DNA of 64,000 bases, taken from NCBI GenBank assembly GCA_963920765.1, contig OY987247.1, forward strand, positions 12,496,471 to 12,560,470, given 5' to 3'. The stretch is from Ulota crispa. Its lineage: Eukaryota; Streptophyta; Bryopsida; Orthotrichales; Orthotrichaceae. Position 1 is the first letter of the stretch. Each line of letters opens with the position of its first letter. A model generated the notes under the pieces. That model did no database searches. It saw only the letters and a program-made list of their open reading frames with translations, and was not told the origin of the DNA. Of the stretch, positions 1 to 64,000 are shown piece by piece. The position numbers and the translations under genes are program-made.

Positions 1-564
1 CATTTTGGGATTAAAATGACCAACTAAAACCGACCATTAGTATACAACTTGGGAATCTGGTTCTCCCAATTTAATGAATATGGCGTTATAGAGAAAAAAA
101 GTTAGTAGTAACTAGTGAGTACTTAGGGTATAGGGTGTAGGGTATAGAGTTTGGGGCCATGGGCTTTAGGGTTCATTCACCAAGAACAAAAAGTACGTTT
201 TATTGTTTAAAATTTGTGGATGGATGGTTGTCACCAACCGCTTGGTCATTGCTGGAGAAATGGGTATCCAATGGTTTTAGTATTACTTTCTAGACTTGCC
301 TTCACTGTTGTGGGGACGCTAATGGAAGTTAAAGTTGTTTGAAAAAAAATTCCTGCCTAATTGCCTATATGCTGCGTACTCCCAGACAAACTTTGAATAG
401 CAAATGTATAGCAATGGATGGCACATGTTCCCATCCTTCGCTGTGTTTTTCAACACAAACTATACTCTTCTATTGTTTCTTATGTTACCATATGTATTAC
501 CAAGGCTTCTACTGGCTCTTCTTTGCCTTTGGTTTCCTATGTTGAAATTGTGTATATGTCATTG
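1..564. other. Gene-free flank; possible end of a TIR element
   Basis: I see no convincing gene here. Positions about 64-95 (CCCAATTTAATGAATATGG followed by CGTTATA) resemble the right terminus of the MITE at 32082-32382, so the right end of another copy may enter from outside the window. The remainder is AT-rich and unassigned. Confidence 0.35.
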
Positions 565-719
565 CACTAGTAGAAAACTCCTTCCAAAACAACAGAAAAC
601 CAACAGTTTTTTGTTGATTTGGGCACTTGCCCATGCTAATTGACTAATTTAACAGAATTCTGTAAAAAACTAAATACGTTCTGTTGATTTGGACACCATT
701 GTTTAAATCAACAGAAATT

Positions 720-1445
720 TTGGAATCTTTTGAAGATAATTTGGGAATTTTTTGTGAATCTTTAAGAATCTTCAAGAATCTTTTGGGAATCATAAAGAAT
801 CTTTTTAGGATTTTTAAGAATATTTAAGAATCTTTTTGAGATTTCAGAATCTTTGAGAATCTTTGAGAATCTTTTTGAAATCTTTTGGAATCTTTTGGAA
901 TCTTTTCAAGCTTTTTTGGAATCTTTGAAAAAGTTTCAGAATAATTGAGAATCTTTGAGAATCTTTGAGAATCTTTTTAGAATCTTTGAGAATCTTGTGG
1001 AATCTTTGGAAATCTTTTCAAGTTTTTTTGGAATCTTTGAGAATGTTTCAGAATAATTGAGAATCTTTGAGAATCTTTTTGAAATCTTTTGGAATCTTTG
1101 GGAATCTTTTCAAGTTTTTTTGGGAATCTTCAAAAATGTTTGAGAACAATTGAGAATCTTTGAGAATCTTTGAGAATCTCTTTGGAATCTTCAAGAATCT
1201 TTGGAAATCTTTGAGAATCTTTGAGAATCTTTGAGAATCTTTTAGGAATCTTTGAGAATCATTTAGAATCTTTGAGAATCTTTTCAAGTATTTTGGAATC
1301 TTTGAGAATGTTTGAGAATAATTGAGAATCTTTGAGAATCTTTGGAAATCTTTTGAGAATCCTTTTTGAAATTCAAAAAGTCTTTGAAAATCTCTAAGAA
1401 TTTTCAAGAACCTTTTTGGAATCTTTTAAAATCTTTTTAAAATCT
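720..1445. repeat. Degenerate GAATCTTTGA tandem array inside CACTA copy
   Basis: Dozens of short units of the form GAATCTTTGA or GAATCTTTTTGA run head to tail, interrupted by a longer higher-order unit with AAGTTTTTTTGGAATC and AGAATAATTGAG. Minus-strand open frames through it are a repeat artefact (Phe/Ser/Lys/Asp-rich) and are not called as a gene. Subterminal satellites of this kind are common in CACTA elements. Confidence 0.75.
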
Positions 1446-2301
1446 TTATGGAATTTGTTAAAGTACTTCAGAATACTTATAGAAATAGAATCTCTTAGAC
1501 TGAATTAGAATCCTTTATGAATCTTTTTGTAAATCATCAAAATTCTTTCAAAAAAACTATCACAATAGTTTAGGTTTGTTTTTGAAATCTTTCTAAAATC
1601 TTTTTGGACCTCATTAAATTTTTTTGAAGTTTTAAAAAATAAAAGAAGTTTTCTGAAAAAAAGAATCTTTTAGAAGTTTGAGTGTACATTGATTGGTTTT
1701 ATTTTCTTTACTTTTCACAATTTGGTAAGATTTAAACTTAGCAGCCTTTAAAGTCAGGTAAAAACATGACCATAATAACAAAAAACTCAACATTTTTTTG
1801 TTGATCTAGATACTTTTGGACACAACTTCAGTAATTCAACAAAATTTTATATAAAAATTACAACATTTTGTTGTTTTAAATACCAAAATTTCTTTACAAA
1901 CAAATGTAAATGATGCTCCTCAATTCTTTGAAGAAATCATAAATGTCCCTTAAGGATTAAAAGTACCAAAAATATCTTTGTGTTACATGATAACCAAGTG
2001 TATAGTTTAATGCAAATTCTTACAAGAAACCAAAGGTGATTTTTACATTTCAAATAACACAAGGATATATTTAACATTTCAAAATAGAAGAGTTTTTTAT
2101 TAATTTTCCAAAATAATATGAGTATAATTGATATTCCTACAAAAAATTAGGACTATTTTTTATGTTTCACATATTTTTGGCGTGAACTTGATATTTTGAA
2201 AGACTTAAAGGGTATTTTTAGTAATATTCCTTCTATTACTAACCAAATGAATTAAAAAAAACAATCTTATAAAATATTTTTATAAGTTTTAAAAGATGGG
2301 A

Positions 2302-2701
2302 ATTGATATGTGTACCACACCCTTCTACTATACCACACTACGAGGTAAATTTTAGATTTCTACCATCAAAAAGCTGAATTTGAAAATTTTGAATTCAGAT
2401 TTGGACTTAGAGACCATGGTATTGTCTAGAACCATAAAAAAAGTTGCAATTCAACAACACCCAATGAAAAAGTTTAGTTAGGGAGAAAATTGTTAATTTT
2501 ACTTTTGTTTGTAAAAAAAGATAAGCTTTTTCATTGGGTGTTGTTGAATTGCAACTTTTTTTATGGTCCTAGACAATACCATGGTCTCTAAGTCCAAATT
2601 TGAATTCAAAATTCTCAAACTCAAATTTTTGATGGTAGAAATCTAAAATTTACCCCAAGGGTGTGGTACAGTAGTTCAAAGGGTGTGGTTCACATATTAA
2701 T
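2302..2701. mobile_element. Foldback MITE nested in CACTA left copy
   Basis: A roughly 400-bp element whose two halves are inverted copies. Termini are ATTGATATGTGTACCACACC and the inverse of ATTAATATGTGAACCACACC, and the arms share a long stretch around TTGCAATTCAACAACACCCA. The arms meet near 2470-2520, so a transcript would fold into a long hairpin. A terminal fragment of the same family lies at about 16968-17035. Confidence 0.65.
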
Positions 2702-3221
2702 GGCCTTACAAAATATCCAAAACTATTCAAAAGTCAATAGAATTTTGATTTTATAATTGCAAGGATTTGATTTCGTAACTTTTCACAACTTCATGTTATT
2801 TGAAGCTATCAAACTATGGAGGCTATTTTAACAAAATAAGGTTCTTTTTACAAAAAAACTAACACTAAATAATAATTATTAATGAATCCAACCTTTGCCT
2901 GCAACAATCCTTATGAGATTTGTGAATTCCAAAAAAAAATTATATACAAAATCAAAAGGATGGAAATAAACAATTTATTTAAAATTTCTAAACACCTTCT
3001 TTGATTTTAGCTCATAACTTTTGATAAAAAGATTGAAATCCAAAAGAAATTGTTGGAGGTGAAAGAAAAACACATTTACCAACTTTTCTTAGTTCTAAGT
3101 TTTTTGAAAAAAAGTCCTTGAATGGGCGGAAATAGCCTCCAAAGTCTATTGGATTACTAAAGACATGAACATTTAATGTACAAATAGAATTAAGATACTA
3201 ATGCATACATGTGCATTTGCA

Positions 3222-3300
3222 CATTCTCTAGTGGTTTTGAGAATGTGCTAAAGTTGTGGAGTGTGAGAGGAGAGATGGAGGGTTCAAACCCCGCTGTCGG
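3222..3300 (+). other. tRNA-like A/B-box pair (SINE head-like)
   Basis: CTAGTGGTTTTGAGA at about 3228-3242 resembles a plant SINE A box. GGTTCAAACCCC at 3281-3292 matches the pol III B box apart from one base. They are about 40 bp apart, as in tRNA-derived SINE heads. No acceptor stem or anticodon arm is evident, so it is not a functional tRNA. The inverted CACTA copy carries the same block at 18526-18604. Confidence 0.35.
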
Positions 3301-3602
3301 CAATTGCCCAAGAGTTTGGGCAGCTGCCCAAAAAGTTCGGGCAGCTGTCCATCCCCCTAAAAAGTTCACATTTTCGTAAAATAATAACAAATTCTATGAA
3401 AAAAAAATTTAAAAATGAAAAGAAACAGAATTGAACAACATAAAATACGTAGTAGAAATCAACACCAAATTAACAGAAAACTGTAAGTAATCAACAAAAA
3501 ATCAACAGAAAAGTACCCAAATCAACTTGACCAAATTCACAGAAAAAATCAACAGTTTTTGGTTGAAATTCTGTTGATTTTGTGCTGAATTTTCTACTAG
3601 TG

Positions 3603-12837: not shown

Positions 12838-13151
12838 AGGTAGGAACACTCATAAGCGTCAATGTCTCCATAACTATTACCTCTGAAGTTTTGGAAAATT
12901 TAAGGAAGTGAATACGTGTAATGACAAGGATGTACAACATGTGAACATGAAATCTTAAAAGTGGTTATGGGTGCAATGGCTGTTTGCTCTATAAAAATTC
13001 ACAACTTATTCTCATAGTATCCAAATAATACATTCAAAAGTGCAAACTCATCTTTTTTCTGTTCCTAGTAAGATCCTATAATTTGCTAGTTGTGTGTTAA
13101 TAGTCATCATGTTCAAAACCCTTAGTTTGACGTTTATGGGTGCTCCTACCT
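12838..13151. mobile_element. AGGTAG-end MITE, uninserted relative of the VOC intron
   Basis: 314 bp with terminal inverted repeats AGGTAGGAACACTCATAA and TTTATGGGTGCTCCTACCT, flanked by TA at 12836-12837 and 13152-13153. Its interior aligns block by block with the intron of VOC copy 1. Shared blocks include AAGGATGTACAACATGTGAA, AAAATTCACAACTTATTCTC, ATCCAAATAATACATTC and TAATAGTCATCATGTTCAAA. It lacks the two MITEs nested in that intron. Confidence 0.8.
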
Positions 13152-17851: not shown

Positions 17852-19124
17852 TGTATGTTAGGTTGTATTTTCAATTTAGTGATGTTTTCTCTCAAGGAGA
17901 TCACTCCCTCTAACATTTTGCATACACTTACAATATTGACCTATTTAAATGGGAGTTATTTTCCTTGTCAAAAAAATTATAAGCTCATTATAAAACATGG
18001 TGTTTTTTTAAATAAAGGTAAATGTTGGTGATTAAGTGCACCATATTGGTGGTACTCATAATTTCTCTAGGGGCTCATGTTAAGTTACCATATATTACTT
18101 AAAATCCTTTATTTTCTTTAGGCCCCATTTATTCCTTGTAAATCATTCTATCTGTTATATGCATTTTATTTCCTAAGTTTAGCACTATCTTGGAAAGATC
18201 TAGTACTATGAACCACTGTGCAACACTAGTAGAAAATTCAGCACAAAATCAACAGAATTTCAACCAAAAACTGTTGATTTTTTCTGTGAATTTGGTCAAG
18301 TTGATTTGGGTACTTTTCTGTTGATTTTTTGTTGATTACTTACAGTTTTCTGTTAATTTGGTGTTGATTTCTACTACGTATTTTATGTTGTTCAATTCTG
18401 TTTCTTTTCATTTTTAAATTTTTTTTTCATAGAATTTGTTATTATTTTACGAAAATGTGAACTTTTTAGGGGGATGGACAGCTGCCCGAACTTTTTGGGC
18501 AGCTGCCCAAACTCTTGGGCAATTGCCGACAGCGGGGTTTGAACCCTCCATCTCTCCTCTCACACTCCACAACTTTAGCACATTCTCAAAACCACTAGAG
18601 AATGTGCAAATGCACATGTATGCATTAGTATCTTAATTCTATTTGTACATTAAATGTTCATGTCTTTAGTAATCCAATAGACTTTGGAGGCTATTTCCGC
18701 CCATTCAAGGACTTTTTTTCAAAAAACTTAGAACTAAGAAAAGTTGGTAAATGTGTTTTTCTTTCACCTCCAACAATTTCTTTTGGATTTCAATCTTTTT
18801 ATCAAAAGTTATGAGCTAAAATCAAAGAAGGTGTTTAGAAATTTTAAATAAATTGTTTATTTCCATCCTTTTGATTTTGTATATAATTTTTTTTTGGAAT
18901 TCACAAATCTCATAAGGATTGTTGCAGGCAAAGGTTGGATTCATTAATAATTATTATTTAGTGTTAGTTTTTTTGTAAAAAGAACCTTATTTTGTTAAAA
19001 TAGCCTCCATAGTTTGATAGCTTCAAATAACATGAAGTTGTGAAAAGTTACGAAATCAAATCCTTGCAATTATAAAATCAAAATTCTATTGACTTTTGAA
19101 TAGTTTTGGATATTTTGTAAGGCC

Positions 19125-19524
19125 ATTAATATGTGAACCACACCCTTTGAACTACTGTACCACACCCTTGGGGTAAATTTTAGATTTCTACCATCAAAAA
19201 TTTGAGTTTGAGAATTTTGAATTCAAATTTGGACTTAGAGACCATGGTATTGTCTAGGACCATAAAAAAAGTTGCAATTCAACAACACCCAATGAAAAAG
19301 CTTATCTTTTTTTACAAACAAAAGTAAAATTAACAATTTTCTCCCTAACTAAACTTTTTCATTGGGTGTTGTTGAATTGCAACTTTTTTTATGGTTCTAG
19401 ACAATACCATGGTCTCTAAGTCCAAATCTGAATTCAAAATTTTCAAATTCAGCTTTTTGATGGTAGAAATCTAAAATTTACCTCGTAGTGTGGTATAGTA
19501 GAAGGGTGTGGTACACATATCAAT
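19125..19524. mobile_element. Foldback MITE nested in CACTA right copy
   Basis: Mirror image of the foldback element at 2302-2701, sharing its long inverted arms. Confidence 0.6.
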
Positions 19525-20380
19525 TCCCATCTTTTAAAACTTATAAAAATATTTTATAAGATTGTTTTTTTTAATTCATTTGGTTAGTAATAGAAGGAAT
19601 ATTACTAAAAATACCCTTTAAGTCTTTCAAAATATCAAGTTCACGCCAAAAATATGTGAAACATAAAAAATAGTCCTAATTTTTTGTAGGAATATCAATT
19701 ATACTCATATTATTTTGGAAAATTAATAAAAAACTCTTCTATTTTGAAATGTTAAATATATCCTTGTGTTATTTGAAATGTAAAAATCACCTTTGGTTTC
19801 TTGTAAGAATTTGCATTAAACTATACACTTGGTTATCATGTAACACAAAGATATTTTTGGTACTTTTAATCCTTAAGGGACATTTATGATTTCTTCAAAG
19901 AATTGAGGAGCATCATTTACATTTGTTTGTAAAGAAATTTTGGTATTTAAAACAACAAAATGTTGTAATTTTTATATAAAATTTTGTTGAATTACTGAAG
20001 TTGTGTCCAAAAGTATCTAGATCAACAAAAAAATGTTGAGTTTTTTGTTATTATGGTCATGTTTTTACCTGACTTTAAAGGCTGCTAAGTTTAAATCTTA
20101 CCAAATTGTGAAAAGTAAAGAAAATAAAACCAATCAATGTACACTCAAACTTCTAAAAGATTCTTTTTTTCAGAAAACTTCTTTTATTTTTTAAAACTTC
20201 AAAAAAATTTAATGAGGTCCAAAAAGATTTTAGAAAGATTTCAAAAACAAACCTAAACTATTGTGATAGTTTTTTTGAAAGAATTTTGATGATTTACAAA
20301 AAGATTCATAAAGGATTCTAATTCAGTCTAAGAGATTCTATTTCTATAAGTATTCTGAAGTACTTTAACAAATTCCATAA

Positions 20381-21106
20381 AGATTTTAAAAAGATTTTAA
20401 AAGATTCCAAAAAGGTTCTTGAAAATTCTTAGAGATTTTCAAAGACTTTTTGAATTTCAAAAAGGATTCTCAAAAGATTTCCAAAGATTCTCAAAGATTC
20501 TCAATTATTCTCAAACATTCTCAAAGATTCCAAAATACTTGAAAAGATTCTCAAAGATTCTAAATGATTCTCAAAGATTCCTAAAAGATTCTCAAAGATT
20601 CTCAAAGATTCTCAAAGATTTCCAAAGATTCTTGAAGATTCCAAAGAGATTCTCAAAGATTCTCAAAGATTCTCAATTGTTCTCAAACATTTTTGAAGAT
20701 TCCCAAAAAAACTTGAAAAGATTCCCAAAGATTCCAAAAGATTTCAAAAAGATTCTCAAAGATTCTCAATTATTCTGAAACATTCTCAAAGATTCCAAAA
20801 AAACTTGAAAAGATTTCCAAAGATTCCAAAAGATTCTCAAAGATTCTAAAAAGATTCTCAAAGATTCTCAAAGATTCTCAATTATTCTGAAACTTTTTCA
20901 AAGATTCCAAAAAAGCTTGAAAAGATTCCGAAAGATTCCAAAAGATTTCAAAAAGATTCTCAAAGATTCTCAAAGATTCTGAAATCTCAAAAAGATTCTT
21001 AAATATTCTTAAAAATCCTAAAAAGATTCTTTATGATTCCCAAAAGATTCTTGAAGATTCTTAAAGATTCACAAAAAATTCCCAAATTATCTTCAAAAGA
21101 TTCCAA
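20381..21106. repeat. Degenerate AAGATTCTCA array inside CACTA right copy
   Basis: Reverse complement of the array at 720-1445. A plus-strand open frame at 20419-20778 arises from the repeat and is not called as a gene. Confidence 0.75.
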
Positions 21107-21261
21107 AATTTCTGTTGATTTAAACAATGGTGTCCAAATCAACAGAACGTATTTAGTTTTTTACAGAATTCTGTTAAATTAGTCAATTAGCATGGGCAAG
21201 TGCCCAAATCAACAAAAAACTGTTGGTTTTCTGTTGTTTTGGAAGGAGTTTTCTACTAGTG

Positions 21262-23189
21262 CTTGCTCTTGAATTGTTGTTGCTAGATGAAGTGTCATCA
21301 AGTGTCCCTCCTCTAGCTTCTTGATATTAGGTAATTTTTTGTGGAAAAAATGAGTTTTTTTTTTATATGCTTAGAGAATGTGACATAAATGAAGCATTTT
21401 CATTTACCTTTGTGTTTGCGTTTCTCTTCTATTTTTGATGCAAGTTAGATGCAAGGAAGCATTGACTATGTTGGGATAGTTCACACGATTAGCAAAGATA
21501 TGTCACTAATCATGTGCAAACATATATATGTTGTTAAATTTGTGTGCAAGGTTGAGTTTTGACTTTTGTTTGTGTTTTTGTCCAAGCATTTTTGTTTTAA
21601 CATGTTATTAGAGAACATGAGTTTCAGAAATCACCAAATACCACATCAATAAGTGGTGTTGTTTTTGCATCAGTATTTCCATTCTTGATTTATTTCTTAC
21701 AATATAAACTTGTGTAAGATGCAATGTCCATCATTGTTTTTTATTCAAAATTGTACAGAGCTTTATTGTATATAAAGATATAATAAAAGTATGAGGTTTA
21801 AATTGTTTTTTTCTTTTTGGTATTTGCAGGCAAACTTGTTCATGCTCATGTTCAACTTGAAGTTTTTAGTGATAGTCGCTTGCTACAACCTAAGCGCGCA
21901 AGGCTAAGGATGAGCAAGCACTGCCTCTATCGCTGCAATTTGAGCGCATTTGCTAAACATTGCAATGGAAGAAAGATTTTTGATTTGAGTGAGATGTAAT
22001 TTAGGTGTTAGTCATTTTACTTGTTCTTTTTATTTTGCCTACAATTCTAGAGTCACAATTTCAGTGATAGTTTTTTTTGTTGTGAAGTGTAGGTATTTAC
22101 TAATAGTTTTGTGAGATTCATTTAGTTGTTGTTGTAGAACTTATTCTTGTAATACAACTGGCAAAAATTGTGGATTCAGTTTCTATAAGAAGGGTAGTTG
22201 CAAGAAACACTTCACAGTTTACTCTCAAACACCCTTAGTACTGGGAGTACTAGTAGTACTACCGAGCTTTTGGGATAATTTTTAAAAAAATAAAATAAAA
22301 TACGGAAAATTTGTATAGCACTTAAAATAGCATACTTGTGAAAATTCAGACCTAGAATTTTTTTATTCTAAAAGTTATGTGCAAAAAAAAATCACCAACA
22401 AAAAGCCAATTTCTTTCTTTCTTTTTAGAAAATGGTAAAATAATTCAAAAAATAAAAATAAAAAACGGCCGTTTGAGAACCCATTAAACACATTCACATG
22501 GTACAATTGCTTTGCTGAGGAATTTCTTTGTATTTTGCCAATGAAGGGAGATAGGATGTCCACTTTGGGACAATGTAGATGCCATGAAATTTATAATTTT
22601 TAAAAACCCTTCTATACATGTGTGTAAGCATGCTTCATAAACAACATCCCTAATTTATAGCCCTAGAAAAGCTTTTTTGGACCCAAAATAGTACTAAAAA
22701 CCCCCAAAATGGCCAAGGTAGACACCTATTTGGGAGCTGTTTAAAAATAGTAAAATAATTTTAAAAAAAATTGCAAAAATTAGGGAAGGTCTATAACTAT
22801 GAAATGTACATTCCTCTGAAATTTCAGCTCAAAAGAACTTGCTGTGCAAAAGTTACAAGCCAAAAAGCACTTGCGGAGGTGAAGGAGACAAGAAATAGTA
22901 CAAGTGTTTCTTGCAATCACCCAAGAAACAGAAGATTTCATGAGCTTTGTAAACATTTTACTACATCTTGTTTGAATGTATATTTTGCAATACAACCAAC
23001 ATGTACATCTTGCAAATCCCATTACTTACATTCAAATCTTCAAATTAGGAACAATTCAGAATTCTTCAAATCTTTTGACAAATAACACCTAGGGTGTCAT
23101 TCAATAGTTGACACCCAAGAATGACATCCCCATGTCTTAGTGTTAAAAAATGACAAAGGGTGTCATTTAGGGGTGTCATACCAACCCCC
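21262..23189. other. Gene-free; one exon-like fragment
   Basis: At 21830-21999 a slightly less AT-rich open stretch follows a good splice-acceptor-like sequence (TTTTTCTTTTTGGTATTTGCAG ends at 21829, pyrimidine-rich tract then CAG) and runs to a TAA stop. The translation is not recognisable and no upstream exon is evident. It may be a captured or decayed exon. The rest is AT-rich and unassigned. Confidence 0.25.
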
Positions 23190-24760: not shown

Positions 24761-26228
24761 CAGCTTGAGCTTGAAGCTTTTCATTCAAAATAAGCATTCA
24801 TGGCTGTTCCTTTAAATATGATTAGAAATTGACTGATTCTACCATTGTAACGCCGATAGCACACTCGCTCTTGCGCATCTTTGTTTCCTTGCTACTTAAC
24901 AGAAGCTCTTGTACTAACACAGCGGCGATCATTTCGTGTTGGGAGAGATCATCTTTTTGTGTGCTTGGATCGTTGATCTCCAAGTCTTCCAGAGGTTTGA
25001 TATCTTTCTTTCTCCTTGACGGTCTTGATTGCACAATGTGGATCATTTGGAAATCCTAGGATGAGGGAGCTAAAAGAAGAGAAGCTTTTGTTTGTTTTTT
25101 GAATTTGTAGTTGCGTCTCTGCGATCGAGCTCCTTAATAATGTGGCATTTGATTTGATCGAAATTGTATGTGTGTCTATATATTTGAATTCTTGTGTTGT
25201 TTCTTTGATGTTTGATCGAGCGGAGAAATTGGAGAGTTGGAGAGCTCTTGGAGTGTAAGGTCTGCAATGGAAACATTTAGTAAGCTCTTGTACACAGTGT
25301 CGACCTCTTCGTGTTTTGAGAGATCGAAATTTTGTGTGCTTAAATCGTTAGATTTGTTTTCGCCATTCCAAGTCTTGCAGAGGTTTGATAACTTTCTAGT
25401 TCCTTGGCGGTCTTGGTTGCGCAATGTGGATTTGGAAATTTTAGGATGAGGGAGCTAAAGAAGATTGAGAAGCTTTTGTTTGTTTTTTTGAATCTGTAGT
25501 TGCGTCTCTGCGATCAAGCTCAATGATCATGAGGCATTTGATTTGATCGAAATCCTGTGTATGTCTTACATTTGAATTCTTGTGCTTTTTTTTTAATGTC
25601 TGAGCGGAGAAATTGGAGAGCTCTTGTGTAGTTGTACAATGTGAACATTAAGTTTGAGGAGAAGCAAAATGAAACAATTCTAAGTTAGTAAACCGTGATC
25701 ATTAAGTTGAGGAGAAGTGAAGTGAGAGAATTCTAATTTAGTGAACTATTTTGTGTTCACGTAGTGCGTCTCTGCGATTGAGCTCATTCATCATGTGTTA
25801 TTTGATCTGACCGAAATCCTGTTGTGTCTTATATTTGAATTCTTGTGTTGTTTCTTTAATGTTTGAGCGAGGAAATTGGAGAGCTCTTGGAGTGTAGTTC
25901 TACAATGGAAACATTAAGTTTGAGGAGAAGCAAAGTGAGAGAACTCTAATTCAGTGAACTACTGCGTTCACGCAGTGCTTTCTTGAATTTATAGTTGCGT
26001 CCTTGCGATCGAGCTCATTGCCAAAATCCTGTGTGTGTCCTTATATTTGAATTCATGTGTTGTCTCTTTAATGCTTAAGCGAAGAAATTGGAGAGCTCCT
26101 TGGAGTGTAGTTCTACAATGGAAACATTAAGTTTGAGGAGAAGCGAATTGAAACAATTCTAATTTAGTGAACTATTTTGTTGCGTTTCAATCAGTAGTGT
26201 GCTTGTGGATTCAAAGAAGAGACTCGCC
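24760..26228 (+). repeat. Tandemly duplicated leader of VOC copy 1
   Basis: The segment that is single-copy ahead of VOC copy 2 (34587-35184) occurs here as a series of tandem partial duplications. The marker GTTGCGTCTCTGCGATCGAG and its variants recur at about 25111, 25497, 25761 and 25992. Each is followed by CATTTGATYTGA, GAGCGGAGAAATTGGAGAGC and ACAATGGAAACATTAAGTTT. The first duplication unit is about 386 bp and later ones about 264 and 231 bp. Each later unit brings upstream ATGs (AATGGAAAC). If transcribed, it would give a leader of over 1 kb with several short upstream frames, or alternative start sites. Confidence 0.75.
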
Positions 26229-27526
26229 ATGTCGACGAAGGTATCGCCCTGTCTCTGGTTCGATCGAACGGCGGAAGAGGCGGCGAACTTCTACAGCACG
26301 CTTCTCCCGGACTCTCGCGTAGACGAAGTGGTGCGTGCCCCGGCGGACAATCCCAGCGGAGCCGCGGGATCGGTGCTGCTCGTCAAGTTCACGGTCGGGG
26401 GGCAGAAGTTCCTCGGTCTTAACGGAGGGCCGCATTTCAATTTCACGGAGGCTGTTTCGTTCACCATCGACTGCGACGACCAAGCGGAGGTGGACCGGCT
26501 CTGGGAATCGCTGACGTCCGAGGGCGGCGAGGCGAAGCAGTGCGGGTGGCTGAAGGACCGCTATGGCCTGTCGTGGCAGATCGTCCCTAAGGTAGCAACA
26601 TCCATACACCATCACCTCTCAAATCTTGGGAAATGTGTGGAAGTGAATAGATGTAATTATGGTAGTGCCTTGCTAAGATGAATCTTTATGAGAAAAAACG
26701 CTTGGCTAAGATGAAGTAAATGATTGTTTCTGGTGGTTGGGGAGTTACAAAAGATTTTTTAGTTACAATGAATGTTTTCCTTACATGAAATGAATATGCT
26801 GTCCGGATACCTTCATTGTATTGAGGCACTACTATACAAGGATGTATAACATGTGAACATGAAACCTTAGTGTTGGTATTAAGTGCAATTTTAGTTGGCT
26901 TTTTAAAAATTGGGAAAATTTCAAGGATATTCCTTGAAACTTGCGATATTTGCATAGATACCCCTGCTTTTTCAGAAATATCACCAATACCTTTGGACCA
27001 GAATTTTCAAGAGTTTGTTTTGGTGTGCATGCCACTTTCCTTCTTCCTTTGTGCGCACGCGTAACAAAAAAGTGTGCACTCAAAGGGAGAAGAAAGTGAC
27101 ATGCATAACAAAACAAACGCCTAAAATTTTTGGTCCAAGGGTATTTGTGAAATTTCTAAAAGAATGGGGATATCCATGAAAATATGGCAAACTTTAGAGG
27201 TATTTATGAAAATATGACAAACTTTAGAGATATCTATGAAATTTTCCCTTAAAAATTCACAACTCATTCTCACAATATCCAAATAATACATTTGAAAGTG
27301 CAAACTCATCATTTTTCTCTTGCTAATAGGATCTTATAATTTGGTATATGTTTTTATTAATAGTCATCATGTTCAAATCCCTTAATTTGACGGTTATGGG
27401 TGCTGCTACTTGAAGGTACTTCCGCAGCTCATGTCGGACCCCAAGGACCCTGCGCGCGCTGCACGTGTGATGCAGGCCATGATGCAGATGACTAAGCTCG
27501 ACATCGCCAAGCTCTCAGCTGCCTAG
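26229..27526 (+). CDS. VOC-family PhnB-like protein, copy 1 (two exons)
   Basis: Predicted join 26229-26591 and 27416-27526, 157 residues. It is a small cytosolic-type VOC (glyoxalase/dioxygenase fold) protein of the PhnB-like group, often annotated from the '3-demethylubiquinone-9 3-methyltransferase' domain name, which does not establish that activity. Substrate is unknown. Visible family blocks are PCLWFD near the start, AANFYSTLLPDSR, FLGLNGGP, TIDCDDQAEVDRLW and CGWLKDRYGLSWQIVP. ATG 26229 was chosen over an in-frame ATG 30 bases upstream because copy 2 starts at the same point. Unspliced, the frame runs to a stop at 26681 with an unrelated tail. Splicing AAG|GTAGCA to TTGAAG|GTACTT restores the conserved C-terminal end, which finishes KLSAA in copy 2. 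The intron appears to be transposon-derived. The coding sequence is clearly GC-richer than its surroundings. Confidence 0.8.
26660..26834. mobile_element. Small MITE nested in the VOC intron
   Basis: 175 bp with ends TGGTAGTGCCTTG and GAGGCACTACTA, flanked by TA. The element at 12838-13151 is uninterrupted at the matching position (GTGTAATGACAAGGATG), which defines this insertion. Confidence 0.6.
26912..27248. mobile_element. Mutator-like MITE nested in the VOC intron
   Basis: 337 bp from GGGAAAATTTCAAGGATA to ATGAAATTTTCCC, flanked by perfect 9-bp direct repeats TTAAAAATT (26903-26911 and 27249-27257). A 9-bp target duplication is typical of Mutator-like elements. The element at 12838 is uninterrupted at this point. 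Relatives lie at 42072-42333 and 42770-43068. Confidence 0.8.
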
Positions 27527-35184: not shown

Positions 35185-35655
35185 ATGGCGAAGATCGTGC
35201 CCTGTCTCTGGTTCGACCACAACGCAGTCGAGGCGGCGAACTTCTACACCACGCTGTTCCCCGACTCTCGCATCGTTGAAATTATCCACGCCCCTGCGGA
35301 CAATCCTAGTTGTCCAGCGGGAGCGGTGATCCTGGTGAAATTCACGATTGCAGGCCAGAATTTCCTCGGTCTAAACGGCGGGCCGCAATTCAAATTCTCG
35401 GAGGCTATTTCCCTCACTATCGACTGCGACGACCAAGCCGAGGTCGACCGGCTCTGGGCCACTTTAACCTCAGAAGGTGGAGAGCCGAAAGACTGCGGGT
35501 GGCTGAAGGACCGCTATGGCCTGTGTTGGCAGATCGTCCCTAAGGTACTCCCTCAGCTCATGTCGGACCCCAAGGACCCTGCGCGCGCTGCGCGTGTGAT
35601 GCAGGCCATGATGCAGATGACCAAGCTCGACATCGCCAAGCTCTCAGCTGCTTAA
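35185..35655 (+). CDS. VOC-family PhnB-like protein, copy 2 (intronless)
   Basis: 156 residues, complete and uninterrupted. One VOC/PhnB-like domain spans nearly the whole protein: PCLWFDHNAVEAANFY at residues 6-21, LFPDSRI, FLGLNGGPQFKFSEAIS in the middle, TIDCDDQAEVDRLW, CGWLKDRYGLCWQIVP near residue 110-125. The C-terminal helix region contains RVMQAMMQMTKLDIAKLSAA. There is no signal peptide or membrane segment. The length and motif order are those of bacterial PhnB-like proteins. Enzymatic role is unknown. It is the empty-site counterpart of copy 1: CCTAAGGTACT is continuous at the position where copy 1 carries its intron. GC content is high against an AT-rich background. A CT microsatellite follows the stop, as in copy 1. 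Confidence 0.85.
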   Translation: MAKIVPCLWFDHNAVEAANFYTTLFPDSRIVEIIHAPADNPSCPAGAVILVKFTIAGQNFLGLNGGPQFKFSEAISLTIDCDDQAEVDRLWATLTSEGGEPKDCGWLKDRYGLCWQIVPKVLPQLMSDPKDPARAARVMQAMMQMTKLDIAKLSAA

Positions 35656-47779: not shown

Positions 47780-48760
47780 TCAACAGAAAAGAATCTCTAC
47801 TCAGCAATTCCTTCAATCCTGAAGCACAAACGCCTCAGTGTCCATATAACAAGAACCTACGAAACCTCTCAAACCCTAAATGACAACTCTCGACTCAGCA
47901 ATTCCTTCAATCCTGAAACATAAACGCCTCAATTTCCAGATCACAAGAACCTCCAACACCTCTCAAACCTTAACCCTAAATGGCAACTCCACATCACACA
48001 AAAATAAAGAGTATTCTTCTCTTTCACTCTTCCTCTCGTTTCAACTCAATGCAGATTTAACTACAGCTTATCTTATCAGGCGGTCTCATAAAATTTCTTG
48101 AATTTTTTAAGCCCTAAAGAAGAACCGACTCTCTCGTCACGATACGCAAAACCTCTGAAAATCGACAAAAACGAATAACAAGAACCTCCGAAACCTCTCA
48201 AACCCTAAATGACAACTCCACAACACACAAAAAACGAGGTTTATTCTCTTTCACTCTTACTATTGTTTCAACTTAAATGCACAATCACCTAAAGCTTATC
48301 TAATCGAGCGGTTTCATACAATCTCTTGAAATTCTGAACTAAAAACCACGCAAACCTCTGAAAATCGCAAAAAAGGAGAATTTCTCTCTCCCTCTTTGTG
48401 CTGCAGATTCTCGATCAGCTTGAAGGTTGAATTCACAAACGGCACGTTTGCCTCACGGCGAACATCAAGCTCCAGCAATGGCTACAGAAGGAATCCTCCG
48501 AATGACTCCAAAATGAAAACCCTAAACCCCTACAGGAAATCTTTACGTCGTCGTCTAATGGAAAAAGAGAAATTTCTAGAAGGCCGAGTATGGAGAAATC
48601 CAAAGAATTCTTACCTTTTACAAACGAGAACTGTCACGAGCTTGCGCGTCACTCCATCACGTTTGCACCGATTCTGCGAGCGGGCTTTCTCCTCAAAGAA
48701 ACACAATCTTCGCGTTCGTGAAGCCTTGGGCTTAAAATGGCTGATTGGATGAAATATTAC
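47780..48760 (-). promoter_or_regulatory. PRP6 upstream region with repeated leader segments
   Basis: On the plus strand, blocks built from AGCAATTCCTTCAATCCTGA, AAACGCCTCA, AACCTCTCAAACCCTAAATG and ACAACTC recur at about 47800, 47895 and 48175. This gives two to three partial tandem copies just ahead of the gene. On the minus strand GATTTTCAGAGG occurs twice (near 48155 and 48360) and resembles a splice acceptor, so a leader intron is possible. No core promoter is assigned. Confidence 0.45.
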
Positions 48761-48815
48761 CGTTGGGATGAAACAGCATGATTGGGATCATGTAAATGGG
48801 ATGAAATAGCCAGAT

Positions 48816-49036
48816 TTGGATGAAATAATGTATTTAGGATGAAATAATGTATTTAGGATGAAATAATGTATTTAGGATGAAATAATGTATTTAGGATGAA
48901 ATAATGTATTTAGGATGAAATAATGTATTTAGGATGAAATAATGTATTTAGGATGAAATAATGTATTTAGGATGAAATAATGTATTTAGGATGAAATAAT
49001 GTATTTAGGATGAAATAATGTATTTAGGATGAAATA
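48816..49036. repeat. Perfect 19-bp satellite, 11 units
   Basis: GATGAAATAATGTATTTAG is repeated about 11 times without visible change. Diverged GGATGAAAT-containing units flank it on both sides (48750-48815 and 49037-49110). There are no spacers, so it is not CRISPR-like. Its homogeneity implies recent expansion. Confidence 0.95.
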
Positions 49037-49196
49037 GCGTGATTTGTATGAAATACCGGTAGTGTGATTGGGAGTGATTGGGATGAAATGCCGTGACTAG
49101 GATGAAATAGTACTGTCTTCTGTATCACACTGCTCATGCGCCCTTAGAGGTGGGACCATCAAAGTTCGAAACAAGGAATATTTTATGTAGTGACTT

Positions 49197-49322: not shown

Positions 49323-49906
49323 TATGTATTAGAGCAAAAAAAAAAAAGATTTTGTTTTGAGGTTGTTTTTCAATTTTGATTCCACTCATTTACATTTATA
49401 TGTGTATTACAAGTGATTGGTAGTAATTTTTTTTGCCAAGAATTTATCAATTCTACATAGGATACACTAGATATCTAAGTATATGAAGAGGTATAATGCA
49501 TAATTTGGAGGAGCAATCAAATGATGGTTTTGGAAAAAGTTGTATAATATGTTTCAAAGATTGTATATATTCATACATTTAAGTTTATTGTTGCATTTAT
49601 TAATAGTTTTCAGCTAAGATTATTTGACAATTAGTTCAAGCATTAAATGTGTTTGTTTATCCAAAATGTTGGGGTTTTCAATGATTGATTGGTTATGGTC
49701 TTACTTAGGATGCTTTCAAGATTTCAATTTTTAACCTTTAGACCATTGAAGTACTTTGTAATAAAAAATGTCACAGTTTTTTTGCTTTATTGTAAATGAA
49801 GATCTGCCCAATTGTACGTTAGACAAGCTAGATTGGGATTATTGGTTTGGTTTAAATTCAAATTTAGGACTTCATTCCTCCAACACCAAGCTATTGGTAG
49901 TATATA

Positions 49907-50134
49907 AGGTAGTGTGCTCTAATTGCGCTCATGCTCTAATTGCGTTCAGCTCTAGGAACGAGAGACATTTTAGATGAAATATCTATGACCGCCATTGATG
50001 AGTTAGGTAGGCTTAGCATATTTGCTAAGCCTACCTAATTCATCAATGGCGGTCATAGATATTTCATCTAAAATGTCTCTTGTTCCTAGAGCCAAACTCA
50101 ATTAGAGCATGAGCGCAATTAGAGCACACTACCT
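49907..50134. mobile_element. AGGTAG-end foldback MITE (228-bp hairpin)
   Basis: Two arms of about 110 bp, nearly identical inverted copies, run from AGGTAGTGTGCTCTAATTG to its complement and meet at GCTTAGCATATTTGCTAAGC. Flanked by TA (49905-49906 and 50135-50136). It shares the AGGTAG terminus and TA target with the elements at 12838, 16563 and 26590. Confidence 0.85.
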
Positions 50135-50154
50135 TATGCTCCTACCATGTTAGC

Positions 50155-50360: not shown

Positions 50361-51289
50361 TGACAAATAAAAAGAAGAAAAAGAAAAGATTGTTTATCAC
50401 TAAAACTCAATTTATGAAACTACACTTGCAAATAATGTTGTACAAAGTAAGAGTGATTTGTATATTGCTCTTGTAACCAATTTTTGGTTGCTATCATAGA
50501 GTATATCCAATGAATGTGTAGATCCCAACTAAAGTTATTGTGGAGGAAAATCAAGAAATATTGCTACTAGAAACAAAACATTTGACTAATTTCATAGTAT
50601 GTCCAATGAGAACTGCAACATGATAGTGAGCATGTAGAAAGAACTACCACATTTACATGTAGACTTTGTGTAGGGTTTGTTAACATTAACTAAAAACTAA
50701 TGAAACAAAAAATCACTTCAAACACAAAGTCTCAGCAAACTTAGCATACTTTGAACCATGCTTTTTTATAACACAAAGCCCATAAAATAGGTTATTTACA
50801 AGTGAAGAACACAGGCATACACTAGAAGAAAATGTGCAAACTAAGACTCTATAAACGACTCATTTTTGAGTCACTTAGGATACAAACAACTCTTTTACGA
50901 CTATACAACTATGCAGTCATGTCCCAGTTCTAGAAAACCTATTGTTTAGGACATTCCAGCAATACGATAGTTCTCATCCGTCTAACACAACTAACACAGT
51001 ATTAACTTCTCTATCAGATTTTTTTTTCCAGTGGATCATCAAATAAGTGCCCGGATAAATACTAGATTCTTTACTCACATACGACTATTCATGGATACGG
51101 TTACAACTGCAATACAATTTGTAGTAGGGCCCACTTTCTTCCAGTTGTTCTCATCCTATTTATTGAGAGCAACTTTATGGACATTTATTAACAATTATTT
51201 TGTCCCTAAATTACATAATGATAGTTATAGTTGAGTTGTAGGTTAGTCAAATTTCAATTGTGTAAGTCATTTATGGGAGTACTTTGAGT
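50361..51289. other. Gene-free; possible CACTA-like end at 50820
   Basis: CACTAGAAGAAAATGTGC at 50820 resembles a CACTA 5' terminus. It is followed by ACGACTCA- and GAGTCACT-type words in both orientations. No matching 3' terminus was found, so it is recorded only as a possibility. Nothing else is recognised. Confidence 0.25.
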
Positions 51290-51525
51290 TGTATTAGTGT
51301 AATTTTGTAGTTGTTATTGAATTGTGGTTGAGTCGTAATTGAGAGGCCATTGAGTTGTAGTTGAGCCGTGGTTGAGCCGTGGTTGAGTCGTGGTTGAGTT
51401 GTGGTTGAGTCGTGGTTGAATCGTGATTGAGTTGTAGTTGAGTTGTGGTTGAGTTGTAATTGAATCATAGTTGAGTTGTGGTTGAGACGTGGTTGAATCG
51501 TAGCTGAGTCGTAGCTTAGTGGTTA
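51290..51525. repeat. 11-bp GTTGAGTCGTG array
   Basis: Tandem units GTTGAGTCGTG and GTTGAGTTGTG or GTTGAATCGTG run through about 51310-51515. Looser relatives with CATAGTTTAGT and AGTCATA motifs continue to about 51900. The minus-strand frame (Asn/Thr/Gln/His-rich) follows the repeat and is not called. Confidence 0.85.
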
Positions 51526-53675
51526 CCTAAGCATCATACAGTCGTATGGTAGTTTTTGTTCAATCATAGCATAGTGATAATCTAGTATCCACAAAGTCAT
51601 GGCATAGTCATAGTGCTATCATAGTTTAGTTGTTAATTAGATACTGCAAAATCATATAGTGATGATCAATTGGTCATGCTATAGTACTACCTCAGTGGCC
51701 ACTAAGTCATACTAGAGTCACATTTTATTGGTCAATGAGTAACAATAAAATTATAATTTATTGGACAAGTAGTTATTGCAGAAGAGATTTTGTAGTTACA
51801 AATTCATGGCATAGTAGTAACGTACTGAACACTAAGTAATATGAGAGTCATGCAGTTGTACTAGTTCCTGAAAAGACCCTATTTGCTACAAACATATCTT
51901 ACTTGCCATTGAGTCCTACTAGAGTTGTATCTTTCTAGTATCTGAGTTCAATCACACTTCACATGAAATCCAGGAGTTGCCACCTAGTTGTCATCTAGTC
52001 ATCACTTACTCCATAATTAATACACACAATTACTTCAAAGTATGTATCAATTGTATACACCAGAACAAAAAGCTTCATATATATTAGAAACTCGTGGTGC
52101 ATCTACTAATTATTTAGCAATCACAGATTATAACACATTGTCTTTTGTATCCACTCAACATCATGTGCATACGCTTGCAATTCCATATAGATAATTAAAA
52201 CAAAACATCAAACTTAGTTACAATGTGGTATTGCTCAGAGACAAAAAACCATAATAAGTGTGCGAAATGAACAAATTTGCAAAGAACATAAAGCCAACAA
52301 ATCCAAAGACGAGCACGAAGCCAACAAACTTTCACAAGTACAGGGTGCAAGCAAACCTGAGAAGAGCACAGAGCGCGTAAACTTGAGAAAAGCGTGGAGC
52401 AAACAAACTTAAGAAGATTGCAATGCAAACGAACATGAGCGGAGCAAACAAACATGAGAAGAGTATAGAGCCAACAAACTTTGACAAATGCACAATGTCA
52501 ACAAACCCTCAAAAGAGCACAGAGCTAGCAGACGAAGTCTGCGGAGCTAAACCCTAAATTCAAAGGTGGCGGCCACATCTTCACCCTACAAACTACCAAC
52601 CCTAATCTCAAAATGAAGGGTCTAAACTGACTCTAAAACTAAAACTTGATTTTAGAAGTGATTGCTATTAAAACTTAAATAATTTGTTTTTGGCAAATTT
52701 AACATAAAAAATGTGTCTAAAATACATATTTATCTCAAAATGGACTATTTATATGCTAAAATCCAAATTGTAAAGCATTTGTAACAAGTTTTTTGCAAAT
52801 TTTAAAATTTTAATTTCTAATATTGGAATGTGTTAATTTTCTTTTTTAAAACAAATCATATCTTTTTTATTTCTGTCTATCTTCAAAAAAAAATATGAAT
52901 TTTTTATTATTATTATGAAACATAAAATTTTAAGCTTTCAAAGAGCTTTAATAGTAGCTTTTTAATTGTTGTTAATAATTGTAATAATAATAATTGAATT
53001 TATGACTCAAATATAACTAAGCTACAACTAGCACATGCTTGGAGAATATTATAATGATCTCACTACGACTCACGTAAACCCAAAATACGACTAAAGTTCC
53101 GCTAAACCTATGGTTTAGTAAGCTAGCAAAAACACACCCCTTTTAAATAGTTGGTTGGAATTGGAGTAGGAAGAGCATGACATTTCTTGTTTTGTAAACA
53201 TTCTCTAGTAGGTGCTATTGAATTGTCCGCCGAATAGGATTTATTAGCATGTGTAAGGTATTAGTAAACATTTGGTTATTGGCACTTTATATAATGCACT
53301 TATTACTAACATTGATGAGATGAGCTAGTCCGGACATTTTAAACAACTCAAGAGAATGGGTTAAAAAGAATAAGAACAAGCAATAAATGATTGGACTAGA
53401 ACAACTACATAACAAGTACACAATAATTGTAGCAGTAACTGAGTCAGTTTGTAGTCGCTTAGTAGTCGGTGTATTGTCTTGTAATTGTTGTTTAGCCAAT
53501 GTAAAGTGAGAACTTAGCCTTGTAGTTGTTGTGTAATTGATATCAAGTCAATTTACAATTGAGTAGTTGTTTAGCAGTGGCAATAATCTAGTTGTTTTCA
53601 TGACCAAATTTGAAGATAAAACCTTCAAATATGTATCACAAGTGGCAAGATAGTTCAATTGAGAAGAAGAAACGC
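51526..53675. repeat. Gene-free; degenerate repeats
   Basis: 52255-52530 is a degenerate array of about 27-33-bp units around CAAACAAACTTGAGAAGAGC and ACAGAGC. The rest, including an AT-rich stretch 52650-53000 and GTAGTYGTT-rich sequence near 53400-53570, has no supported gene. Confidence 0.5.
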
Positions 53676-55836
53676 TGTCCTGATGGACTTCCCTCCATCA
53701 TGTAAATACTTGTTATTTCTTTATATTTGTGTTGATTTCAATAAATCAACAGTTGAGGCAAAAGGGGTGGTCGTGGTGAGGACCACGGTTTGGTGACAAC
53801 GCAGCGGCCATAGATTCCAATGCGCTGCGCCGTCTTGTCACATGCACAGCTCAGGGGGGTAGGTAGCGGGTTGGCTGGGCCAATTTCCTGCCTCACTAGC
53901 TGCCAAGCCGTGAGCCGCCATCACCGCTCGACGAGTTCGATGGGATTCGAACCCGGACCGGCGGGCGGCCAGAGACGATCGCTTTTCCAGCCAACCAAGT
54001 CCACGACTTGGCAACTGAAGACAAGCGTTTGACGCTATTATATGCTCGCAAGAGCACGTGGCCATTTTACGATGGTGTTTATTTTGTAATTTAATCATTT
54101 TCATATGTTTATCTAGAGATTTTGGAAGGCTCATATATTTTGCCTTTGTTTGAATAAAAATACTAAGGATTTAGAAGTCAATGGGAAAGGTGTGAAAGGA
54201 AAAGGGTTTTGGCATCTATGGTGGGGTTAGGATAAGGAGGAGCATGGGCTGATGTGCCCCACCTCCCTACCTTAGATAGGGTCGAAATTGTGGAGGAAAG
54301 ATCCCTTAGTTGTTGGAAGTTAGTGTATGAGGGTTGGTGGGAAGAAAAAAAAAAATCCCGAAACTTGGAGAGGAGATTTTTTTCTGTGTATACATGATTT
54401 TGAATTGAAATTTGAGGAGGTTGTTCCTTGTGTGATTACCTTTCCAAAATGAGTTTGCAAGTTTGATTTGGAGTTGTGATGCAAAGGTTATGAGTGTTTG
54501 AATTTTGGAGTCAAAAAGCCAAACTATGAAGAAAGGCTGAGACTTCGACAAGCCATAACTTATGATCTGTATATCATTTTGCAACAAGATTTGGAGAGAG
54601 TGTTTATCTTGTTATTGGCTTTCTAGAAAGTCTTTAAACTTGAAGTTTGAAGCTTGGACGAGAAAGTTATGGAAGTGTGAAGGTTTGGAGGTGGCTGCCC
54701 TTTTGTTAGGAGAAAGCCGAGATTTTGAAGAGCTACAACTTTTGGACAGTATGAGATTTTCTTCTCAAAATTTTAGGAGTGATAGTTTGTTGTCATAGCT
54801 TTTCAAATTGTCTTTAATCATTTCATTTGGAGTTTTATTGAAGAAGTTATAGTGGGTAGAAGTTGCGGGTTTGGGTGCTCTCTAAAAAATTGAGACCCAC
54901 ACTTTGATTGACTAGAGCTTTCGGACAAAGTTTTGTTTTGAAGTGCAAATTTTATGGATTGAAGCCAGTGATATCATCTTTCTAAATTGATATCACGTTT
55001 CTATGGGTGATGTATAGAACAAAAGTTATAGAGGTTTTTAGAGGCAGTGTTTAGTTTGTAAAGAGGAAGAAGAGCCTCTACTTTGAACTTGCATAACTTT
55101 TGGACAGTATCTTAGATTGAGTTGAAATTTAGAGGGATGTTAGAAGGTTAGGAGAGCTTTTCAAATTGCTATTACACTTAGCATTTGAATCTTTGAGCCA
55201 TCTGTGGCATTAGATAGAAGGTTGCTGCCTTTTCTAGGACTTGTTATTTGTGATTTTCCCCATTGTTTTTATTAAAACATGAAGACTTGAAGACTTGAAG
55301 ACATGAAGATTTGAAGATCTGAAGATATGAAGATTTCAAGAGGAATGTTTTGGGTTTATTTTTTTATGTATGTGTGGGATGTGGCTTTGTTATTCCTAGC
55401 CGGTTTTGGAGGCTCGTTTGTCAATTCATTTCCATTCTGTTTTGTAAACCTTGTTGCGGGCAGTTTGGGTTAAACCAAACTTAACCCCATTTATTGTCGT
55501 GGTGACGAAGTGGGATTGATCACCCACATGGTCGAGACTTGCTCTGTTCTCACGATCTGGAGTTTTGGCCAGCAGATCGTGAATTTGATTTTAGGATCCC
55601 GTCATACGGACGGCAGCTCGTGTCTGCTGTCCCGATCTACCCGTCCCGTATCCAGTGGGCTCTTATCCCTACCTTGACCCTTATACCCTTAGAGCCAGCC
55701 ACAGGATAGGCCAACGGAAGACTGAAGACTAAAGATTTGAAGAGAAGATCAAGATTGACAACGTTTTCAGTCGGCAACGCACGATCGCAGCAAGACACCC
55801 TGCGTGTTCCCAAGGCGCGCTCCTCTCAACCCGACA
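53676..55836 (+). repeat. 5' LTR
   Basis: About 2.16 kb from TGTCCTGATGG to CAACCCGACA, the last CA before the primer-binding site (end inferred). The interior contains about four degenerate tandem units of about 179 bp (54480-55240). Markers are AGTTATRGWRGTG at about 54487, 54663, 54842 and 55021, and ACTTTTGGACAGTAT near 54737 and 55095. A TGAAGAYWT repeat is at 55279-55343. A tRNA-like B box is on the minus strand at 53942-53954. Confidence 0.85.
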
Positions 55837-62087: not shown

Positions 62088-64000
62088 TGTCCTGATGGAC
62101 TTCCCTCCATCATGTAAATACTTGTTATTTCTTTATATTTGTGTTGATTTCAATAAATCAACAGTTGAGGCAAAAGGGGTGGTCGTGGTGAGGACCACGG
62201 TTTGGTGACAACGCAGCGGCCATAGATTCCAATGCGCTGCGCCGTCTTGTCACATGCACAGCTCAGGGGGGTAGGTAGCGGGTTGGCTGGGCCAATTTCC
62301 TGCCTCACTAGCTGCCAAGCCGTGAGCCGCCATCACCGCTCGACGAGTTCGATGGGATTCGAACCCGGACCGGCGGGCGGCCAGAGACGATCGCTTTTCC
62401 AGCCAACCAAGTCCACGACTTGGCAACTGAAGACAAGCGTTTGACGCTATTATATGCTCGCAAGAGCACGTGGCCATTTTACGATGGTGTTTATTTTGTA
62501 ATTTAATCATTTTCATATGTTTATCTAGAGATTTTGGAAGGCTCATATATTTTGCCTTTGTTTGAATAAAAATACTAAGGATTTAGAAGTCAATGGGAAA
62601 GGTGTGAAAGGAAAAGGGTTTTGGCATCTATGGTGGGGTTAGGATAAGGAGGAGCATGGGCTGATGTGCCCCACCTCCCTACCTTAGATAGGGTCGAAAT
62701 TGTGGAGGAAAGATCCCTTAGTTGTTGGAAGTTAGTGTATGAGGGTTGGTGGGAAGAAAAAAAAAAATCCCGAAACTTGGAGAGGAGATTTTTTTCTGTG
62801 TATACATGATTTTGAATTGAAATTTGAGGAGGTTGTTCCTTGTGTGATTACCTTTCCAAAATGAGTTTGCAAGTTTGATTTGGAGTTGTGATGCAAAGGT
62901 TATGAGTGTTTGAATTTTGGAGTCAAAAAGCCAAACTATGAAGAAAGGCTGAGACTTCGACAAGCCATAACTTATGATCTGTATATCATTTTGCAACAAG
63001 ATTTGGAGAGAGTGTTTATCTTGTTATTGGCTTTCTAGAAAGTCTTTAAACTTGAAGTTTGAAGCTTGGACGAGAAAGTTATGGAAGTGTGAAGGTTTGG
63101 AGGTGGCTGCCCTTTTGTTAGGAGAAAGCCGAGATTTTGAAGAGCTACAACTTTTGGACAGTATGAGATTTTCTTCTCAAAATTTTAGGAGTGATAGTTT
63201 GTTGTCATAGCTTTTCAAATTGTCTTTAATCATTTCATTTGGAGTTTTATTGAAGAAGTTATAGTGGGTAGAAGTTGCGGGTTTGGGTGCTCTCTAAAAA
63301 ATTGAGACCCACACTTTGATTGACTAGAGCTTTCGGACAAAGTTTTGTTTTGAAGTGCAAATTTTATGGATTGAAGCCAGTGATATCATCTTTCTAAATT
63401 GATATCACGTTTCTATGGGTGATGTATAGAACAAAAGTTATAGAGGTTTTTAGAGGCAGTGTTTAGTTTGTAAAGAGGAAGAAGAGCCTCTACTTTGAAC
63501 TTGCATAACTTTTGGACAGTATCTTAGATTGAGTTGAAATTTAGAGGGATGTTAGAAGGTTAGGAGAGCTTTTCAAATTGCTATTACACTTAGCATTTGA
63601 ATCTTTGAGCCATCTGTGGCATTAGATAGAAGGTTGCTGCCTTTTCTAGGACTTGTTATTTGTGATTTTCCCCATTGTTTTTATTAAAACATGAAGACTT
63701 GAAGACTTGAAGACATGAAGATTTGAAGATCTGAAGATATGAAGATTTCAAGAGGAATGTTTTGGGTTTATTTTTTTATGTATGTGTGGGATGTGGCTTT
63801 GTTATTCCTAGCCGGTTTTGGAGGCTCGTTTGTCAATTCATTTCCATTCTGTTTTGTAAACCTTGTTGCGGGCAGTTTGGGTTAAACCAAACTTAACCCC
63901 ATTTATTGTCGTGGTGACGAAGTGGGATTGATCACCCACATGGTCGAGACTTGCTCTGTTCTCACGATCTGGAGTTTTGGCCAGCAGATCGTGAATTTGA
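62088..64000 (+). repeat. 3' LTR, cut by the window edge
   Basis: The 1,913 visible bases repeat 53676-55588. All open frames match with a constant offset of 8,412, and an 11-A run is of equal length in both. No difference was found in the segments I compared. Confidence 0.9.

Follow-up and report, generated by a model that had tools for sequence, protein, structure and literature searches.

We have found, in Ulota crispa, a MITE that entered an uninterrupted exon of a VOC gene at a TA target, and that is now very probably removed as a GT-AG intron. Pre-mRNA splicing appears, judging from the sequence, to be efficient enough to hold the full-length protein under selection. The gene is copy 1 of a pair in a window of 64,000 nucleotides, which is the whole stretch of DNA that was analysed. 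The insertion and its probable use as an intron are well supported because the empty site is preserved elsewhere, the TIRs and target-site duplication (TSD) give the insert the anatomy of a mobile element, the splice signals are placed at its ends and exon 2 has been kept free of replacement changes. As in a single-event gain of an intron from a transposon, the insertion is derived, its empty site is seen in the paralogue and in bacterial relatives, and the interval has GT-AG ends. The coordinates of the features are collected in Table 1.

Exon 1 of copy 1 is free of stop codons from its start to CCTAAG, where the insert begins, and the conserved C-terminus picks up again directly after the insert. 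Both copies match PF06983 (E = 4.7e-48 for copy 1 and 1.3e-47 for copy 2); the match in copy 1 covers residues 4-119, all of them within exon 1. The alignment with the solved protein 1u69, which we take to be bacterial, covers residues 1-155 and runs across the insertion site. Just two loci in the whole genome (275 Mb) encode this VOC protein. They lie in tandem, 9 kb apart, and share non-coding homology both upstream and downstream. Copy 2 is uninterrupted at the corresponding site, as the first-pass annotation of this DNA had reported.

Table 1. Features of the interrupted VOC gene, its insert and related sequences, in positions of the window
Feature	Position	Strand	Details
VOC copy 1 exon 1 (coding part)	26229..26591	+	121 codons; PF06983, PhnB/glyoxalase-like; ends in CCT AAG
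Left TSD, TA	26588..26589	+	Of the 93 family copies surveyed that had an identifiable left end, 79 carry TA before it
MITE	26590..27411	+	822 nt with nested inserts; termini AGGTAGCAACATCCATA...GGGTGCTGCTACTT; TIR AGGTAGCAACATCCATA / ATGGGTGCTGCTACTT
Probable spliceosomal intron	26592..27415	+	824 nt; donor AAG/GTAGCA, acceptor TTGAAG/GTACTT
Nested element 1	26660..26834	+	175 bp; TIR T(A/G)GTAGTGCC; TA TSD; diverges by 7.0% from a consensus built on 10 close copies
Nested element 2	26912..27248	+	337 bp; termini GGGAAAATTTC...; 9-bp TSD TTAAAAATT; diverges by 11.4% from a consensus built on 10 close copies
Candidate branch site TTGAC	27387..27391	+	A at 27390; the acceptor follows 25 nt downstream; subterminal region of the element
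Right TSD, TA decayed to GA	27412..27413	+	
Host AG	27414..27415	+	Directly after the right TSD
VOC copy 1 exon 2 (coding part)	27416..27526	+	36 codons and stop TAG
VOC copy 2	35185..35655	+	Uninterrupted; 156 residues; empty site CCTAAGGTACT at 35539-35549
Stand-alone copy of the MITE family	12838..13151	+	314 bp; TA flanks intact on both sides

The VOC gene is of a bacterial type, its best relative in the bacterial collection (L102) being 64% identical, and it may have been acquired horizontally, going by a comparison set of bacteria and no other eukaryotes. In an alignment of the best 80 of 525 bacterial relatives, there is no inserted column at the junction. The C-terminal part continues in these bacteria, with at least 25 of the 36 positions filled in all 80 loci, and the stretch encoded by exon 2 is as conserved as the rest of the protein (mean top-residue frequency 0.676 each). 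At the 30 residues that differ between the two Ulota copies, the state nearer to the bacterial one is found in copy 1 for 10, in copy 2 for 10 and is unclear for the other 10. Copy 1 is therefore not decaying faster than copy 2. The region upstream of copy 1 (25086-26181) contains repeated units: an 83-nt unit is present four times, with two of the spacings at 213 bp, and a 92-nt unit three times. Several of these copies match one single stretch upstream of copy 2.

The insert follows CCTAAG in copy 1, and the 824 nt are fully accounted for by the MITE, two nested elements and TSDs. The first-pass annotation had placed an insert of this size with MITE termini here, flanked by TA on the left and a decayed TA on the right, and all of this holds. 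It had treated the insert as one MITE, however, and in this respect the picture has to be revised: the MITE anatomy stands, while the two nested elements, which had been missed, make up much of the 822 nt, and the MITE by itself is about 300 nt long. Without the nested inserts it measures exactly 299 nt against a subfamily consensus of 314 bp, and it differs by 6.4% from a consensus of the 39 nearest among 74 copies compared, a consensus that leans towards the VOC element because 6 of the 74 were found by searching with it. We take nested element 2 to be Mutator-like from the length of its TSD. A search of Rfam gave no match at its cut-offs.

Could the composite have arrived as a unit? We reject this, as the 3′ junction of nested element 2 has 264 places in the genome within 3 mismatches and is exact at the VOC locus only; many of the near-matches look like an empty site of the family. 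Nested element 2 nevertheless stands further from its relatives (11.4%) than does the MITE that hosts it (6.4%). This misfits a simple chronology in which the host came first, unless nested element 2 decays faster or its consensus is off, and the older look of this element leaves a little doubt on the rejection.

The relationship of the insert to a MITE family is beyond chance. Of the 40 places that scored in a search with positions 27220-27416, 39 lie outside this locus and match at 92-94% across the MITE part, and a pattern for the exact end of the family has 5147 matches genome-wide against 0 for a reversed-pattern control. The stand-alone relative with intact TA flanks that had been noted earlier in the same window is indeed a member. 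The family has the properties of MITEs, being short (consensus 314 bp), bounded by TIRs, present in high copy number (5147 exact ends) and associated with a TA TSD (79 of 93). This TSD would fit Tc1/mariner elements of the Stowaway-like kind, although the TIR, AGGTAGSA, differs from the Stowaway consensus.

The window contains several other repeats. An inverted repeat of 3039 bp (564-3602 and 18224-21262) has arms that are 99.93% identical and 14.6 kb apart, and contains 10/11-bp tandem arrays as well as a shorter inner inverted repeat. A direct duplication (53676-55588 and 62088-64000), 100% identical over 1913 bp with its copies 8412 bp apart, reaches the end of the window and is either a recent duplication or an assembly artefact. 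There is also a near-perfect palindrome at 49904-50137, with 115-nt arms that are 96% complementary and separated by 4 nt, and there are tandem arrays at 48730-49090 (19-bp units) and 51287-51528 (11-bp units).

The splice signals of the proposed intron are divided between the element and its host. The donor lies 2 nt within the left end of the element and the acceptor 4 nt past the right end, so that, as had been proposed, the donor GT comes from the element and the acceptor AG is the host dinucleotide after the duplicated TA. The AG of the Lys codon that closes exon 1 (26590-26591) likewise consists of bases supplied by the element. Spliced RNA would equal the pre-insertion sequence, because the element's AG remakes the codon and the host AG serves as acceptor. 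Joining exons 1 and 2 gives a protein of 157 residues. The restoration of the C-terminus in frame had been put forward in the first-pass annotation, and it does occur, yet it is less surprising than it seems, since the host sequence returns whenever an insertion is taken out together with one TSD. More telling is that splicing by the GT-AG rule can restore the frame; this requires an AG right after the host TA, which is present at just 7.6% of the exact ends in the family.

The strength of these signals is middling. Scored with an approximate plant matrix over the region 26500-27460, the donor ranks 4th of 51 GTs and the acceptor 3rd of 46 AGs. The base at donor position +5 is other than G and the acceptor carries A at -3, two weak features by the plant splice consensus. 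Mis-splicing is possible, because two AGs (26975 and 27329) and two GTs (27141 and 27200) inside the insert outscore the proposed sites on this matrix. Use of an alternative acceptor at 27427, 12 nt further downstream, would keep the reading frame but delete four residues from the protein. Besides the candidate branch site in Table 1 there is a second, TTAAT, 30 nt upstream of the acceptor, both having been picked by a motif rule. The G+C content of the insert is 0.34, against 0.63 for exon 1 and 0.60 for exon 2. According to the sections cited here of PMC4974935, a low-G+C intron between exons of higher G+C is a contrast favoured by plant splicing.

We propose the following sequence of events. 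The host site CCTA^AGGTACTT would have received TA[AGGTAG...CTACCT]TA. The first bases of the element, AGGT, beside the duplicated TA, recreate the Lys codon and an AAG/GT donor, and the displaced host AG right after the second TA would serve as acceptor. Subterminal YTRAY motifs of the element, lying at branch-site distance, would offer a branch site, and the spliced product would equal the sequence before insertion. Two nested insertions bring the interval, which would otherwise measure about 300 nt, to 824 nt.

Another reading of the same locus is that the insertion truncated copy 1 and left exon 2 as a relic. Without splicing, translation would run on into the element and stop after 29 element-coded residues, giving a product of 150 aa. 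That this frame stays open for 29 residues, that the PF06983 match ends before the insert and that the splice signals are of middling strength are all in keeping with such an outcome. The state of exon 2 argues against it. Comparing copy 1 with copy 2, silent and replacement differences number 38 each in exon 1 (dS 0.686, dN 0.152), whereas exon 2 has 5 silent differences and 0 replacements (dS 0.236, dN 0), with TAG as the stop codon in one and TAA in the other. All 36 of its residues are therefore identical to those of copy 2, despite the 6.4-11.4% decay seen in the insert, and this in a region, from exon 2 to about 370 nt past the stop, where the two copies are just 76% identical overall. 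Had exon 2 gone untranslated since the insertion, a decay of 6.4% over its 83 replacement sites would lead one to expect 5.3 changes (P of none 0.005), and a decay of 11.4% to expect 9.5 (P of none 0.00008), with the proviso that decay from a consensus can overstate the age of an insertion if the source copy already differed. We consider truncation unlikely.

It is more improbable still that gene conversion from copy 2 overwrote exon 2, in which case the intactness of exon 2 would say nothing about splicing. The copies are in tandem, and silent divergence is lower in exon 2 than in exon 1 (Fisher P = 0.035), as conversion would predict; past conversion could have added to the likeness of the two exons 2. 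On the other hand, the silent divergence of exon 2 amounts to about 0.118 per lineage and exceeds the decay of the MITE (0.064-0.067), although with 5 silent changes this is a weak comparison. Any conversion would thus, with the same weakness, have preceded the insertion.

An ancestral intron that copy 2 lost by retroposition was among the refutations envisaged in the first-pass annotation; the MITE would then merely have entered the intron. Even though certain comparisons among plants count more losses than gains (PMC2682935, in the sections cited), we reject this reading as barely credible: the insert is wholly mobile-element sequence, the MITE's ends match both splice sites with zero non-element intron sequence, copy 2 keeps non-coding homology with copy 1 on both flanks, and the bacterial homologues aligned (the best 80 of 525) have no insert. 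Nor can an older intron be hidden in the interval, because the MITE, the nested elements and the TSDs explain all 824 nt.

The probable conversion of one exonic MITE into an intron stands on good grounds. Is the whole family an introner family, with several exonic copies spliced in this plant? This reading would add to the explanation given above for the VOC locus, and the VOC element resembles introners in being exonic with its ends near both splice sites and, at the level of sequence, in combining element-borne and host-derived splice sites with an unchanged mRNA. The family is also well equipped. TAAG follows 392 of the 5147 exact ends (7.6%), making them splice-ready, 83 of the 93 copies surveyed have AGGT at their left end, and 68 of 74 copies have a YTRAY motif that lies, in the VOC orientation, 15-36 nt short of the right end.

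We surveyed the first 100 of the 392 TAAG-flanked ends, all of them on the two largest contigs; a left end could be recognised in 93, the basis of the counts out of 93, and the other 7 were set aside. The first-pass annotation had proposed counting the copies of the AGGTAG-end family that coincide with introns, and in this sample a role of the family as introners is unsupported: there is no convincing exonic intron at these 100 of 392 ends, in a survey whose pattern requires an intact right end and is blind to copies as decayed as the VOC one. Of the 93 joined host sites, 4 are open for 90 nt or more in both directions, against 19 of 179 controls (positions 120 nt away); by the same measure the VOC site is open for 110 nt. 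Ten of the 79 junction ORFs were scanned against Pfam, and among these ten none scored above the curated cut-off besides those at two loci, L049 and L101. At L049 an NDUFS7-like exon (PF01058, NADH dehydrogenase 20-kDa subunit) begins about 40 nt downstream of the MITE copy, which is apparently inside an existing intron, and it was rejected as an exonic intron. At L101 a copy (element at 1206-1519) sits at GGTA^AG in a gene with a ZF-HD match, whose left part has a sole other match, at 34%. We rejected it as a second new intron, since the frames disagree at the exact junction and, by eye, a nearby older donor fits equally well.

It seems doubtful, then, that this is a true introner family. That it is a latent one, in which exonic insertion at TA^AG would yield a seamless intron, is similarly unlikely, even with the donor AGGT and a branch-site-like motif present in nearly all sampled copies. 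That further cases exist among the remaining 292 of the 392 ends, or among decayed copies, is likewise a slim prospect.

ONSEN is an LTR retrotransposon, and the elements behind the maize Ds and rice catalase introns belong to classes other than MITEs with a TA TSD. The VOC case differs from the maize and rice cases in involving such a MITE, in its nested insertions and in the selection seen on the downstream exon. What they have in common is a plant transposon credited with an intron in a host gene: the cited parts of a review (PMC3443670) list introns of transposon origin in Oryza (rice catalase, Iwamoto et al. 1998) and in Zea (maize Ds, Giroux et al. 1994). ONSEN insertions in Arabidopsis, including exonic ones, become introns, as demonstrated by cDNA sequencing in the sections cited of PMC12112155. 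There, as very probably at the VOC locus, an exonic mobile-element insertion is removed as a plant intron, although the ONSEN insertions are new laboratory ones with cDNA evidence, whereas splicing of the VOC MITE is deduced from sequence.

The AGGT model, as outlined in the same review (PMC3443670), shares with the VOC case a proto-splice site of the AGGT type where the element inserts, and an unchanged transcript. In that model the duplicated target provides AGGT on both sides, whereas at the VOC locus the TSD is TA and the AGGT of the donor is the end of the element. A further close parallel is with the introners of Chrysochromulina, which, in the sections cited of their survey, carry the 5′ splice site and co-opt a 3′ site (Gozashti et al. 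2022, PMC9860276). An exonic element, a TSD, a donor from the element, an acceptor from the host and an unchanged mRNA are common to both. In Chrysochromulina, though, the TSDs of the introners are 4 bp long and TIRs are absent, whereas the VOC MITE has a TA TSD and TIRs; and the introner families in that survey have anywhere from 5 to over 2000 copies in a genome, against one case here and none convincing in our sample. Those sections of the survey report no Introners in land plants. Among the literature matches listed (subscription papers fell outside their scope), we found no MITE-derived intron in a land-plant exon. The cited portions of PMC4522979 and PMC8227079 contain none either; the carrot paper deals with MITEs in splice variants.

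The VOC intron is thus a candidate, and an unusually readable one, for a further case in a land plant of a known route from mobile element to intron. There is a small chance that the genome of this plant contains more such introns, and if the family were a true introner family it would, going by the cited sections of the survey (PMC9860276), be the first in land plants. A single locus displays the source element, the empty site, the origins of both splice sites, growth by nested insertion and selection on the downstream exon. It provides a concrete picture of the way in which a common plant MITE can give rise to an intron, and perhaps also of why this may happen so seldom, as a host AG is needed right after the TA, a setting found at 7.6% of the exact ends of this family.
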